From NCBI RefSeq assembly GCF_030553305.1, contig NZ_JARRAH010000001.1, forward strand, positions 1,984,001-2,048,000: a stretch of DNA of 64,000 nucleotides, written 5' to 3'. The notes beneath the pieces were generated by a model. That model had not been told where the DNA came from and did not search any database. It was given only the letters and a program-made list of their open reading frames with translations. The translations under genes and the position numbers were made by a program. This document shows, piece after piece, positions 1 through 23,959 of this stretch; position 1 is the first letter of the stretch; each line of letters opens with the position of its first letter. This DNA comes from Halomarina ordinaria. Lineage in GTDB: Archaea > Halobacteriota > Halobacteria > Halobacteriales > Haloarculaceae.

Positions 1-1408
<1,408 letters not shown>

Positions 1409-18871: not shown

Positions 18872-20695
18872 TCAGTTGTCGTCGAAGCGCGCCTGGACGA
18901 ACGGCTGGGCGTCCTCGACGTCGCCGAGTCGCGAGTCGCTGAGCAGGACCGCCTCCGTCTCCTCCAGGGGGACGGAGAGCCCCATCTCCTTGGTGCGGCC
19001 GTAGCGACCCTTGCTGACGACGACGGCGTTGACGATGCCGAGCATGTCCAGTTCGCTGATGAGGTCGGTGACGCGCCGCTGGGTGAGGACGTCCAGGTCG
19101 ATCTCCGCGCAGAGGCGCTTGTAGATGTTGAACACCTCGCCCGTGTTGATGTTGTGGACGCCGTTGCGTTCGAGGAGGATGACGGCGTAGAGGACGAGCT
19201 TCGACTGCGTCGGGAGGGTCCGGACCACCTCGACGACCCGGTCGAGTTCGATCTTCTCCTGTGCGCGCCGCACGTGCTCCTCGTTGATGTGTTCGGTCCG
19301 GTCGCGCTCGGCGAGTTCGCCCGCCGTCCGGAGCAAGTCGAGCGCGCGCCGGGCGTCGCCGTGTTCCTGCGCGGCGAAGGCGGCGCACAGCGGGATGACG
19401 TCCTCCGAGAGGGCGTCGCCCTTGAACGCGACGTCGGCGCGCGCCTGGAGGATGTCGCGCAACTGGTTGGCGTCGTACGGCGGGAAGACGATTTCCTCCT
19501 CGCCGAGGCTCGACTTCACGCGCGGGTCGAGGAAGTCGGTGAACTTGAGGTCGTTCGAGATACCCATGATGGACACCCGGGAGTTGTCCAGTTCCGAGTT
19601 CATGCGCGAGAGGTTGTACAGCGTGTCGTCGCCGCTCTTCTCGACGAGTTTGTCTATCTCGTCGAGCATGATGACGACGACGCGCTCCTGGTAGTCGACC
19701 GCCTCGAAGAACGTCGAGTAGACGCGGTCGGTCGGCCACCCCGTCATGGGGACGGGTTCGAACTGCTCGCGGTCGGCTTCCAGTTCCTCGATGCGCGCGT
19801 CGAGCGTCGCCCGGTCGGCGAACCCGGAGTCGGCGAGCGCGTCGGGATGGTCGTCGGCGTCCACACGCTCACGGAGGTCGGTCAGTCGGTCGAGGCGGGC
19901 GTCGATGCGCTCGGTGTTCTCCTCGATGAACTTGTTCGCGAGCTGGGCGAGCACGCGGTACTGCGTGTCGGTCACCTCGCAGTTGATGTACTGGACCTCG
20001 CAGGGCACCTCGTATTTCTGGGAGGTGGACTCGAGTTCCTCGCTGACGAACTTCGCGCTCGCGGTCTTGCCGGTCCCCGTCTTCCCGTAGATGAGGATGT
20101 TCGACGGCGTGTCACCGCGCAGCGCGGTGACGAGGATGGTCGCCATGTTGTTGATCTGCTCCTCGCGGTGGGGCAGACGTCGCGGCGTGTAGGAGGGGCG
20201 GAGCACCTCCTTGTTTTCGAAGATGGGTTCGCCGCTCAGGAGGTCGTCGAACAGGCCGGGGGCCGCCTCGTCGGCCCCTTCGGTCAGCGGCGGGTCCGAG
20301 AGGGAACCCGTGCCGGCACCGTCCGTGTCGACGGTACTCGCGTCGACGGTACTCGCGTCGATGCTGTCGGCGGTGGGCACGTCGCCCGTGGTCGTCCCGG
20401 AGGCGGTCGGTTCGTCGACTGCCGGTTCGTCGACTGCCGGTTCGTCGGTGGTCGGTTCATCGGTGGGCGCCCCGGCCGCGGTCGGGTCGGTCGGCCCGGT
20501 CCCTGCCTCGGCCTCGTTCCCGGGGTCGTCGGCAGGTACGGTCGTATCGACATCGTCGGCCACGGCTTCGGTGTCGGTCTCGGTCGTCGAGTCGACATCG
20601 GCGTCCCGGTCGGTCGCGGCGTCCGCCTCGGCGTCCGTGTCTACGTCGTCCGGCGCACCGTCCGCCTGCGGTCGGTCTGAGTGGTCGTCGGTCAT
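18872..20695 (-). CDS. orc1: Orc1/Cdc6 replication initiator
   Basis: A 607-residue AAA+ initiator that binds ORBs and opens the origin. An acidic N-terminal extension of about 160 residues is low-complexity and contains short tandem repeats (EPAVDEPAVDEP, DASTVDASTVD). The AAA+ core then shows Walker A YGKTGTGKTAS (about 203-213), Walker B VVIMLDEIDKL (about 340-350), and sensor regions ISNDLKFTDFLDPRV and HGDARRALDLLRTAGE. The C-terminal winged helix (about 500-607, with RRVTDLISELDMLGIVNAVV) binds DNA. It is read away from the origin it presumably controls. An ORB-like sequence lies 25 nt upstream of the start. Confidence 0.96.
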   Translation of the reverse strand: MTDDHSDRPQADGAPDDVDTDAEADAATDRDADVDSTTETDTEAVADDVDTTVPADDPGNEAEAGTGPTDPTAAGAPTDEPTTDEPAVDEPAVDEPTASGTTTGDVPTADSIDASTVDASTVDTDGAGTGSLSDPPLTEGADEAAPGLFDDLLSGEPIFENKEVLRPSYTPRRLPHREEQINNMATILVTALRGDTPSNILIYGKTGTGKTASAKFVSEELESTSQKYEVPCEVQYINCEVTDTQYRVLAQLANKFIEENTERIDARLDRLTDLRERVDADDHPDALADSGFADRATLDARIEELEADREQFEPVPMTGWPTDRVYSTFFEAVDYQERVVVIMLDEIDKLVEKSGDDTLYNLSRMNSELDNSRVSIMGISNDLKFTDFLDPRVKSSLGEEEIVFPPYDANQLRDILQARADVAFKGDALSEDVIPLCAAFAAQEHGDARRALDLLRTAGELAERDRTEHINEEHVRRAQEKIELDRVVEVVRTLPTQSKLVLYAVILLERNGVHNINTGEVFNIYKRLCAEIDLDVLTQRRVTDLISELDMLGIVNAVVVSKGRYGRTKEMGLSVPLEETEAVLLSDSRLGDVEDAQPFVQARFDDN

Positions 20696-20720
20696 GTGTG
20701 GTTGTCGCTCCCTCGATAGA

Positions 20721-20740
20721 CCCCATGGTTTCGGGTGGAG
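20721..20740 (-). promoter_or_regulatory. ORB-like box just upstream of orc1
   Basis: Plus strand CCCCATGGTTTCGGGTGGAG matches CCCCTTCGTTTCCGGTGGAA (the core box at 21465) at 16 of 20 positions. It lies 26-45 nt before the orc1 ATG, where an initiator could regulate its own gene. A possible orc1 TATA element (GCTTAATTA, reverse strand, about 20852-20861) is much further upstream and would give a long leader. Confidence 0.55.
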
Positions 20741-21250
20741 TCGGCCCTGCGCGCTGCCTCAGACGGTCGAGAATCGGTGTTTCGAGCTATCTCGCGGAGA
20801 TACCCGCCGGAGGAGGCGTCCAGTTGATGCAGGAGAAAGCGTAGACGAGACTGTAATTAAGCATTGTGGTCCACTCCCACCCCACCGACGCATCCGACGG
20901 TGGATTCCGTGGCGGGCGACCCGCGGCCGACCGGCCTCTCGTGGGACGCGCTGAATTCTCGAAGCGGCCTCGACGGCGCGCGAGAGGGCGACTCCGATGG
21001 ATGAGATGTCGAGGGGGGTCGTGTCACTCGTCGTCGGTCTCGCGAGCGAGCGACGTGAGCCGGAAGTCGCTCGCCGAGCCCGACGGGACGGTCGTGGAGT
21101 CGAAACGCACCCGTCAGCGGTGCGCTATCGTTCGTCCCTTCCTCACTAGCACTGGGGAGTGGACGGGAGCGGTCCGGACACGGCGTCCACGACGCGGTAA
21201 CCACCGACGTACTAGACGGCGCGCGCAGTGGAAGTCGGCCTCTCGTCGGG

Positions 21251-21290
21251 GTGCTAGAGGTGGTAGAGGTCGCTAGAGGGCACTAGAGGG
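21251..21290 (+). repeat. Four imperfect tandem copies of a TAGAGG decamer
   Basis: Successive units are GTGCTAGAGG, TGGTAGAGGT, CGCTAGAGGG and CACTAGAGGG. A related GCTAGAGA occurs at 21315-21322. Three of the four units contain CTAG. They lie about 180 bp outside the left core ORB. This looks like an iteron-like or spacer repeat and is not part of a gene. Confidence 0.65.
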
Positions 21291-21464
21291 ATGTACCGAC
21301 GAATCAGCGACCCCTGCTAGAGAACAAACGACAGCCCCGTTTCGACTCGAACGGATTCCAGGTTCGAAAAGGTCGCACTTATCCGTCGTTTTCGACGGGT
21401 AGCACTCTTCAGTCGAGAGGATCGGTCATAGATGGCGGTCGGCGCGTCGGTCGTTACCCCCCAT

Positions 21465-21484
21465 CCCCTTCGTTTCCGGTGGAA
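21465..21484 (-). promoter_or_regulatory. Core origin recognition box, left
   Basis: Reverse strand TTCCACCGGAAACGAAGGGG, followed by a G-rich extension (ATGGGGGG). It is inverted relative to the box at 21731. Orc1/Cdc6 is known to bind such boxes, with the G-rich end giving polarity. Confidence 0.85.
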
Positions 21485-21529
21485 GCGATACAAGAGGAGG
21501 GGGCGGTGAGTGATGAGACGGAGGACTAG

Positions 21530-21680
21530 AAGGGACGGAAACAACTAAGTAACCTTCCATACAACCAGACCCGTAGTAGGAAGAGATAGCCATTCATTAT
21601 CTACTTTCTAGACTAGTCTAGGTGAACGTTTCCCGTCGTTTCTAGTTCTAGTGACTTTTTCGCGTTCTCTCGACAGTTTT
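21530..21680. other. Low-GC stretch between the core ORBs, candidate unwinding element
   Basis: This segment is clearly richer in A/T than its surroundings, for example AACAACTAAGTAACC at 21540-21554, CATTCATTATCTACTTTC at 21591-21608, and a T-run at 21655-21660. It includes five CTAG sites at 21608-21651. Its place between two inward-facing ORBs is the usual layout of a haloarchaeal duplex unwinding element. Confidence 0.7.
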
Positions 21681-21730
21681 CCGTCACGTCTGCCTACCGA
21701 CGACCGACCCCTACCCACCCCTTCGGACCG

Positions 21731-21750
21731 TTCCAGTGGAAACGAAGGGG
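21731..21750 (+). promoter_or_regulatory. Core origin recognition box, right
   Basis: TTCCAGTGGAAACGAAGGGG followed by TGGGGGTGT. It mirrors the left box, including the G-rich extension, with 246 bp between the two. Confidence 0.88.
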
Positions 21751-22162
21751 TGGGGGTGTCGGAGCGGTGCGTGATAACACGAGTGGGAGATAGTGCCTCC
21801 GGTAGGAGTGTATCGATTCTCGATATAGCACACCTCCGTCGAACGCGACACCCGTTCACCCCGTCTGAACACAGGTGTTGTTCGTCGCTACCGCGGCTCC
21901 GCCTACACTTCGACTCCACCGCCCGGTCCGTGTGTAGAATTGTCGCCCGAGCGCCGGTCGAGGGCTTCGACGGTTGTCGTCGGGACAGCGAGGTGACGAG
22001 GTGGTGTGCCATCAGAGGCATTCCACACGAAGGCGGGGGGTCCCGACACGGAGGCGACGTCGACTGCACCTCGTCGACCGCACCTCGCAGAGACGCGTGT
22101 CGCCCGTAGAACTCGCGTACGCGCGAACGATTCCCAGTTACTTGATAGGTGTCTGACGCACC

Positions 22163-22170
22163 CTTAAGTA
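22163..22170 (+). promoter_or_regulatory. TATA box of the oapABC operon
   Basis: CTTAAGTA within GCACCCTTAAGTACG. It predicts a start near 22193 and a leader of about 40 nt. GGGAGG at about 22219-22224 can serve as ribosome binding site for the ATG at 22235. Confidence 0.65.
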
Positions 22171-22234
22171 CGTCGGGTCAGGTATACCGGGTAGACGCGC
22201 CCCCTGCGGGGGGTCGTGGGAGGACACAGTTAGG

Positions 22235-22882
22235 ATGGGACTGCTCACCGACATCAGGGATAGCATCTCGCGAGTCACGACGCGATTCTTCGAGGGGCCG
22301 AACCAGGAGCCGAAACGCATCGGTATCTACGGCCCACCGAACGCCGGCAAGACGACGCTCGCGAACCGCATCGCACGCGACTGGACGGGCGACGCCGTCG
22401 GTCCGGAGAGTCACGTACCGCACGAGACACGTCGAGCGCGACGCAAGGAGAACGTCGAGATACAGCGCAACGGTCACTCCGTCACCATCGACATCGTCGA
22501 CACGCCCGGCGTGACGACGAAAGTCGACTACAAGGAGTTCCTCGAACACGACATCGAGAAGGACGACGCGGTGCGCCGCTCCCGGGAGGCGACGGAGGGC
22601 GTCGCCGAGGCGATGCACTGGCTCCGGGAGGACGTCGACGGCGTCATCTACGTGCTCGACAGCGCAGAGGACCCGTTCACGCAGGTCAACACGATGCTCA
22701 TCGGCATCATCGAGAGTCGCGACCTGCCCGTGCTCATCTTCGCCAACAAGATCGACCTGGACGAATCGAGCGTCCAGCGTATCTCGAACGCGTTCCCACA
22801 ACACGAGACGGTTCCGCTCTCGGCGCTCGAGGGCGAGAACATGGACGAGGTCTACGACAAGATCGCGGAGTACTTCGCCTGA
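22235..22882 (+). CDS. oapA: Origin-associated GTP-binding protein OapA
   Basis: A 215-residue small GTPase. P-loop RIGIYGPPNAGKTTLANRIA (about 28-47), switch/G3 DIVDTPGV, G4 FANKIDLDES and a G5-like PLSALEGENMDEV are all present. It therefore probably binds and hydrolyses GTP. It is the first gene of a three-gene operon beside the main origin, an arrangement reported for Haloferax, where the genes were named oapABC for origin-associated proteins. The family is Era/Der-like by motif. Its role in replication is not established. Confidence 0.87.
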   Translation: MGLLTDIRDSISRVTTRFFEGPNQEPKRIGIYGPPNAGKTTLANRIARDWTGDAVGPESHVPHETRRARRKENVEIQRNGHSVTIDIVDTPGVTTKVDYKEFLEHDIEKDDAVRRSREATEGVAEAMHWLREDVDGVIYVLDSAEDPFTQVNTMLIGIIESRDLPVLIFANKIDLDESSVQRISNAFPQHETVPLSALEGENMDEVYDKIAEYFA

Positions 22883-22886
22883 GACC

Positions 22887-23276
22887 ATGCCGGAATACAC
22901 CACCTCCGACGGCGAGGGCGTCCAGATCGACCTCATCAGCGGCGAGCGCATGTCGAACCTCCGTACGATGGAGAAGATTCGACTCATCCTCGACGGCGTC
23001 CACAAGGGGAACATCGTCATCCTCGAGGACGGCCTCTCGCCGGACGAGGAGTCGAAGCTCATCGAGGTGACGATGAACGAGATCAGCCCCGACGAGTTCA
23101 CGGGCATCGAGATAGAGACGTACCCCCGCCCGAGTCGAAACGAGGGAGGGTTCCTCGGTCGCCTGATGGGCCGCGACACGGACGACAACAAGCTCACCGT
23201 CATCGGCCCCGCGAACCGAATCGAGACGCTCCACAAGGACGAGAACCTCATCAGCGCGCTCGTCACCCGGAAATAA
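22887..23276 (+). CDS. oapB: Origin-associated protein OapB (DUF2073)
   Basis: A 129-residue protein of the DUF2073 family, starting MPEYTTSDGEGVQIDLISGE. Recognisable stretches are LILDGVHKGNIVILEDGLSP, LIEVTMNEISPDEFTGIEIE and KLTVIGPANRIETLHKDEN. No catalytic residues are evident. It begins 4 nt after the oapA stop, and its TAA overlaps the oapC ATG by one base, so the three are cotranslated. The assignment rests on the conserved neighbourhood and sequence type. Confidence 0.85.
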   Translation: MPEYTTSDGEGVQIDLISGERMSNLRTMEKIRLILDGVHKGNIVILEDGLSPDEESKLIEVTMNEISPDEFTGIEIETYPRPSRNEGGFLGRLMGRDTDDNKLTVIGPANRIETLHKDENLISALVTRK

Positions 23277-23959
23277 TGCCCCACCAGTGTACCGAGTGCG
23301 GACACGTGTTCGCCGACGGTTCGAAGGAGATGCTCTCGGGCTGTCCGGAGTGCGGCGGGACGAAGTTCCAGTTCCACCCGAAGGACGCCCCCATCCCCGA
23401 GACCCCACCGGCCGACGCCGCCCCGCCCGACCGCGAGGACGGCGGGGTCGCGGAGACGGTCGGCCGGGCCACCACGACCGTCCGTGGCTGGGTACACGGT
23501 GACACGGATCCGGTGACGTCGAGTGGAACCGGAACCGTCGACCGGGAGCGGGCACAGTCGGACGCCGGGGTCGACGAGGCGGTGGACGCTCCCCGGTCGG
23601 ACGTCGCCGCCGAGAGCGACCCGAGCGCCGACCCGGACCGGGAGGACGCCGCCCAGGCGTCCGCGCGCCGGGACGTCGCCTCGCCCGACGAACTCCCCGA
23701 CCCGCCCGAACAGGACGCCCCCGCCGACGGTCGGGTCGTACGCGAACCCACCGGCGAGCGTCCGGACCTCTCACAACTTCGCGAGGAACTCAACGAGCAG
23801 TTCGAGAGCATCAAGATACTCGAACCCGGCCAGTACGAACTCAACCTGATGGAACTGTACGACCGCGAGGAGTACATCATCGCCCTCCAGGAGAACGGGC
23901 GCTACGTCATCCAGATGCCCGAGAACTGGATCGGTCGCGACCCCGACGAGGACGACTGA
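23276..23959 (+). CDS. oapC: Origin-associated zinc-ribbon protein OapC
   Basis: A 227-residue protein with an N-terminal zinc ribbon, CTECGHVFADG and GCPECGGTKFQF (four cysteines, residues about 4-30). A long acidic, low-complexity linker (about 40-155) follows. The conserved C-terminal domain (about 160-227) contains LREELNEQFESIKILEPGQY and NLMELYDREEYIIALQENGR. The linker is typical of halophile surface chemistry. It is the third gene of the oap operon. The zinc ribbon suggests nucleic acid or protein contacts. Confidence 0.87.
   Translation: MPHQCTECGHVFADGSKEMLSGCPECGGTKFQFHPKDAPIPETPPADAAPPDREDGGVAETVGRATTTVRGWVHGDTDPVTSSGTGTVDRERAQSDAGVDEAVDAPRSDVAAESDPSADPDREDAAQASARRDVASPDELPDPPEQDAPADGRVVREPTGERPDLSQLREELNEQFESIKILEPGQYELNLMELYDREEYIIALQENGRYVIQMPENWIGRDPDEDD

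Follow-up and report, generated by a model that had tools for sequence, protein, structure and literature searches.

The 64-kb stretch of Halomarina ordinaria DNA analyzed here (hereafter, the window) carries a 1539 bp intergenic region (20696–22234) between an orc1/cdc6 initiator gene and the oapABC genes. The orc1/cdc6 gene (18872–20695, minus strand, 607 aa) matches the ORC1-type DNA replication protein family (NCBIfam NF001625, E 3.5e-196). On the other side lie an oapA-type gene for an Era-like GTPase at the origin border (22235–22882, plus strand), which remains the orc1 neighbor in the relatives used, then oapB (22887–23276, plus strand; Pfam PF09846 OapB, E 2e-42) and oapC (23276–23959, plus strand; Pfam PF09845 OapC, E 1.1e-25). 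Origin recognition boxes (ORBs) were detected with a single consensus pattern and a threshold of at least 16 of 22 matches. This identified an inverted pair: a left ORB at 21464–21485 on the minus strand (19 of 22 consensus positions) and a right ORB at 21730–21751 on the plus strand (22 of 22), which extends with its G-string to 21757. The AT-richer 244 bp between them (21486–21729, AT 0.49) is taken as the unwinding element by inference from known haloarchaeal origin structure (PMC3528665). Judged by its gene context and its inverted G-string ORBs, this is a real oriC1, as the first-pass annotation had assumed in placing a CTAG cluster in an origin, and an ordinary member of the haloarchaeal orc1-oapABC type. 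The element also contains a conserved promoter-like core at 21537–21576 on the plus strand, with GGAAACAACTAAGTA followed by AACCAGACCCGTAG. The core recurs at the corresponding position of many oriC1 elements, 60–80 bp from the left ORB and directed towards oapA, with the consensus GRAAGnTTTAT, ~ 14 nt, AACMnTATCCGYAS; it may be bound by a protein or act as a promoter that directs transcription into the origin.

There are 22 CTAG sites in the window, and 12 of them start inside 21146–21651, exactly the count of 12 in 506 bp claimed from a first reading of the sequence. They form two sub-clusters. Six lie on the orc1 side at 21146–21320 (starts at 21146, 21212, 21254, 21273, 21283, and 21317), and six lie between the inverted ORBs at 21526–21651 (starts at 21526, 21608, 21613, 21618, 21642, and 21648). 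By sequence reading, the orc1-side group includes a short plus-strand array at 21254–21289 with 9–10 bp steps, in which CTAGAGG is followed by a changed unit, GTAGAGG (21263), and two further copies of CTAGAGG. In alignment, the TCTAGTTCTAG pair at 21641–21651 is the CTAG pair of the element that both other Halomarina-like origins (L017 and L018) have in common with it. Outside the origin, six sites fall in the 16S rRNA gene (at 310–1125; gene at 1–1408, minus strand, Rfam SSU_rRNA_archaea) and four elsewhere, which agrees with the earlier estimates of about six and about four. Across a sample of chromosomal stretches totaling 458 kb, CTAG occurs at 0.22 per kb (101 sites), and no other 506-bp window in that sample holds more than five, so the density at the origin is exceptional, as proposed. 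When the 1539-bp intergenic region was shuffled with its dinucleotides preserved, the mean was 4.7 CTAG, with 12 or more at p = 0.00075, and in none of 5000 shuffles did 12 sites fall within any 506 bp.

The genome encodes a solitary candidate CTAG methylase of 340 aa (L117:1264–2286, at ~ 1.506 Mb of the chromosome), in keeping with the claim that a conserved solitary methyltransferase, Zim, acts on this motif. TFB and aroD are its neighbors, and no endonuclease gene lies alongside. Over 94%, its product shares 49% identity with the methylase of the Methanothermobacter plasmid pFZ1, the gene of which adjoins an MjaI-family endonuclease gene. Given this homology and established knowledge of MthZI and MjaI, the H. 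ordinaria Zim probably recognizes CTAG. This is the most conserved haloarchaeal methylase, and its role is given as unknown (PMC6471742, PMC10609329).

Comparison across genomes located the sites within the origin. CTAG density was measured in 71 zim-positive oriC1 regions that have inverted ORBs and was 10.9 per kb between the ORBs, compared to 1.1 per kb in the orc1-proximal flank and 1.6 per kb in the other. Several of our tests were conceived after the data had been seen, and the hold-out re-run covers placement and phasing only. In that hold-out of 40 fresh non-redundant origins, sampled from 60 genomes that all carry zim, the densities were 16.0 per kb between the ORBs and 1.4 per kb outside. 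The inter-ORB sites of zim-positive origins numbered 213 against 70 expected from shuffles (3.0x), the highest ratio among the 16 palindromes, while the flanks of the same origins held 101 against 133 (0.76x). A maximal-order Markov model gave an inter-ORB ratio of 1.77x in zim-positive genomes (350 against 197) and 0.98x in those lacking zim.

A passive origin of the cluster would follow if coding constraint, or effects of repair or transposition, had depleted CTAG from the bulk of the genome and AT-richer non-coding origins simply escaped. The low chromosomal background fits this, as does the accumulation of CTAG in 16S rRNA, in a low-GC island, in plasmids, and in some intergenic clusters away from orc genes. 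Escape alone would leave the element undepleted, however, and the threefold excess over shuffles of the same DNA goes beyond that, while the equally non-coding flanks stand at 0.76x; the comparison here is with flanks of the same origins, as ORF-free intergenic DNA elsewhere amounted to 730 bp only. Elements from genomes lacking zim have similar AT content, yet hold 4 sites against 5.4 expected (0.74x). We therefore regard passive escape as improbable.

A dependence on zim was seen across genomes. Whole oriC1 regions held 308 CTAG against 197 expected in zim-positive genomes (n = 70) and 10 against 27 in zim-negative ones (n = 11). The mean number per element was 3.18 in 110 zim-positive origins and 0.36 in the 11 zim-negative origins (Mann-Whitney p = 1.7e-6), the latter being kin to one another, largely confined to a single part of the order, and in draft genomes possibly zim-negative through an assembly gap. 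On a tree of Orc1 and OapA, the zim-negative origins form five clades, each with fewer sites than the mean of its zim-positive sister group; two of these clades have one sister group in common, and one contrast is slight (1 vs 1–3). Among the zim-positive elements, seven of 110 contain no CTAG, and Haloferax elements contain only 1–3. Overall, related origins carry the cluster with zim and lack it without, in support of the first-pass annotation. We also considered whether GATC takes the place of CTAG after zim loss in genomes with a Dam-like gene and rejected this (53 against 57.8 expected). Separately, TGCA, often within CTGCAG, is over-represented in the 11 zim-negative elements (11 against 2.8 expected) and is possibly the site of another methylase.

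The same contrast bears on the idea that the TA step of CTAG merely eases strand opening, with methylation irrelevant. The sites do lie in the presumed unwinding element, where TATA and ATAT are likewise enriched, but other TA-containing palindromes are depleted there (GTAC 0.77x, TTAA 0.60x), and ease of melting does not account for a dependence on zim specifically. We consider it very improbable. Selection keeps CTAG inside the opening element only where Zim is present, and this favors a role for methylation in the opening or renewed use of the origin over both passive escape and ease of melting.

Conservation of individual sites is strongest in one family of origins, f5, for which 12 genomes from 10 genera were aligned. 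Of 156 tetramers in these elements, CTAG holds its position best, with a sharing of 0.78 against a median of 0.056. Six CTAG positions are common to 9–12 of the 12 elements, with a column identity of 0.91 compared to 0.60 for the remainder. Three of the units are near TTACTAGA, in direct orientation, and the steps between sites (20–21, 21–22, 10, and 31 bp) approximate whole helical turns. In a second family, f9, CTAG ranked fourth of 123 tetramers. Haloarcula and the Natronomonas/f3 set retain many CTAG sites, the positions of which shift, so that conservation is barely above that of other tetramers. Halomarina and Halorarius have arrays with 9–11 bp steps, comparable to 21254–21289, close to the element. 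In the training set, the phasing z was 3.3, and CTAG was the only one of the 16 palindromes to show it; in the hold-out it was –1.0 for a small first set and 7.9 for a large set, with 10.4 in f5 and 0.43 once f5 was left out. General helical phasing of CTAG was therefore rejected, as f5 drives the signal; our claim of phasing extends to f5 and a few flank arrays and no further.

These repeats also bring in the nearest rival to a methylation role, namely that CTAG is the core of a site for an origin protein (for example, TTACTAGA in f5) arrayed on one face of the element, with Zim methylation incidental or modulating. Common flanks, uniform orientation, and near-helical steps in f5, its phasing, and the short arrays of Halomarina and Halorarius are all what such a protein would leave, and the phased TTACTAGA repeats are compatible with both readings. 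A site bound independently of methylation, on the other hand, predicts no loss of CTAG where zim is missing, and that loss is what we observe. Beyond f5, flanks and spacing vary and the phasing disappears, and Haloarcula and Natronomonas keep the number of sites while moving them. We hold a protein-binding array of this kind to be unlikely on these grounds, though it deserves to be taken seriously.

Clusters of CTAG also occur at other replication genes. A search of the whole 3.61-Mb genome for three CTAG sites with gaps of at most 25 found eight distinct places, six of which adjoin an orc1/cdc6 gene: oriC1 (counted once), C1:560361–560407, one on C4, two on C5, and one on C6. The other two are in a low-GC island (C1:419555) and beside hisF (C1:1104355). 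In 12 other haloarchaeal genomes, tight triplets adjoined an orc gene in 8 of the 12 distinct examples examined, and some intergenic clusters without orc exist as well. At the second chromosomal orc gene, seven CTAG occur in 47 bp (G000:C1:560361–560407; L003:1501–1547), with internal palindromes CTAGTACGTACTAG and CTAGAACTAGTTCTAG. This cluster lies ~ 200 bp outside an ORB-like inverted pair and thus, unlike that of oriC1, not in the presumed unwinding element. Two further chromosomal orc1/cdc6 genes (G000:C1:1138532 and G000:C1:2110833) lack CTAG in the 1500 bp upstream of them, so the cluster is not present at every orc gene. The low-GC stretch (G000:C1:418055–421072, L002) has a GC of 0.45 and 12 CTAG in 3 kb without an orc gene, and looks like acquired DNA. 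Tight arrays beside a plasmid orc gene were also seen in two genomes that yielded no zim (L205, G027:C2:2104; L206, G015:C2:7067). Both are very similar to an array of Halobacterium salinarum (L204), and the three probably represent a common plasmid origin moving between hosts with and without zim.

Methylation at the origin might also serve another purpose, such as telling the new strand apart during repair, or control of the orc1 promoter or of the element's promoter-like core. The conserved BRE/TATA-like core and the adjoining orc1 gene would suit this reading, as would a report that in Haloferax lucentense CTAG is frequent immediately upstream of genes (PMC11001535). Against it, the excess lies between the ORBs and not in the orc1-proximal flank, and it recurs at other orc genes and at plasmid origins, which makes these purposes distinctly improbable.

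On balance, we lean towards reading the selected CTAG cluster of oriC1 as a Zim-dependent methylation switch at origin opening, a reading drawn from comparative sequence analysis. Counting against it are the zim-positive elements without CTAG, the shifting positions in Haloarcula and the Natronomonas/f3 set, the plasmid arrays in two zim-negative genomes, and the normal growth of a Haloferax volcanii deletion strain discussed below. In this scheme, Zim would methylate each CTAG on both strands. Behind the replication fork, the unwinding element and its border would stay hemimethylated for as long as Zim has not remethylated them. Whether the origin can fire again would depend on the methylation state of the closely spaced sites, which would act either through a protein that binds along the element and reads it or directly, on strand opening or on Orc1/MCM loading. 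A more specific version, which we put forward only tentatively and think doubtful as it stands, has inter-ORB sites, in some lineages on one helical face, that selection retains only in cells with Zim, and in their hemimethylated state these sites would block opening or be bound by an archaeal counterpart of SeqA. We did not adopt a mechanism in which m4C itself strongly weakens the duplex, as PMC4477647 cites reports without destabilization.

Such a switch touches the question of how archaea avoid firing one origin twice, and the placement of CTAG between the ORBs hints that methylation has a part in setting the time at which archaea begin to replicate their chromosomes. The more specific version, if true, would be the first demonstrated case of methylation-timed replication initiation in Archaea. 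With the site-level anatomy, the correlation already in print yields specific targets, namely a small number of defined CTAG sites in an element of ~ 155–365 bp, with the conserved TTACTAGA array of one family and the natural zim-less controls as further handles. The anatomy of the sites also explains why the already-tested Haloferax volcanii is a poor test case. In that species, the motif is dense at only one origin (Ouellette 2018, PMC5867850), a restriction-modification deletion without CTAG methylation shows no growth defect, and cells grow without origins (PMC5867850). The deletion is a poor test of the switch because Haloferax elements hold few CTAG.

The first-pass annotation had thought a Dam-like timing system in haloarchaea new or little described, and this was not borne out. 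CTAG clusters flanking haloarchaeal orc1/cdc6 starts, often several per genome, their correlation with the conserved orphan m4C methylase (Zim, HVO_0794; cHG U / HG1), and a proposed Dam-like role in replication were all published by Blow et al. (2016, PLoS Genet, PMC4752239, Fig. 6D), and the account was restated in 2018 (PMC5867850) and 2023 (PMC10609329). The Dam-like role had already been proposed, and the correlation with zim was confirmed here. The Fig. 6D legend of PMC4752239 gives the motif as CTAG, but its running text gives CATG. That word is one of the palindromes most strongly depleted from oriC1, so CTAG is the correct reading. In the literature on CTAG origin clusters that we examined, no methylation through the cell cycle or effect on initiation timing is reported.

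Clusters at orc1/cdc6 have thus been known since 2016, and the present origin is a further example. It has the motif in non-coding DNA upstream of orc1/cdc6, a solitary methylase with CTAG specificity assigned by homology, clusters beside several of the genome's orc genes (on C1, C4, C5, and C6), and a cross-genome correlation with the methylase; the motif, genes, multiple origins, correlation, and Dam analogy are the same as in Blow et al. Their account plots CTAG density over 50 kb, and the terms unwinding, AT-rich, origin recognition box, helical, and hemimethylated do not occur in the text of PMC4752239. What is added here beyond that text is the inter-ORB placement, the comparison with all palindromes, the detail of the zim-negative contrast, the conservation of sites, and the helical spacing. 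From the haloarchaeal oriC1 as described in PMC3528665, which makes no mention of CTAG, we found no difference at the present origin. The Dam/SeqA system of Escherichia coli differs in its modification (m6A, compared to m4C here), in its enzyme family, and in its motif, GATC being common and CTAG rare in the respective genomes. We know of no SeqA-like reader for CTAG sites in haloarchaea. The two systems are alike in that sites of a solitary methylase are clustered in the origin and its unwinding region, the feature that oriC1 of H. ordinaria has in common with sequestration of the Dam/SeqA type.
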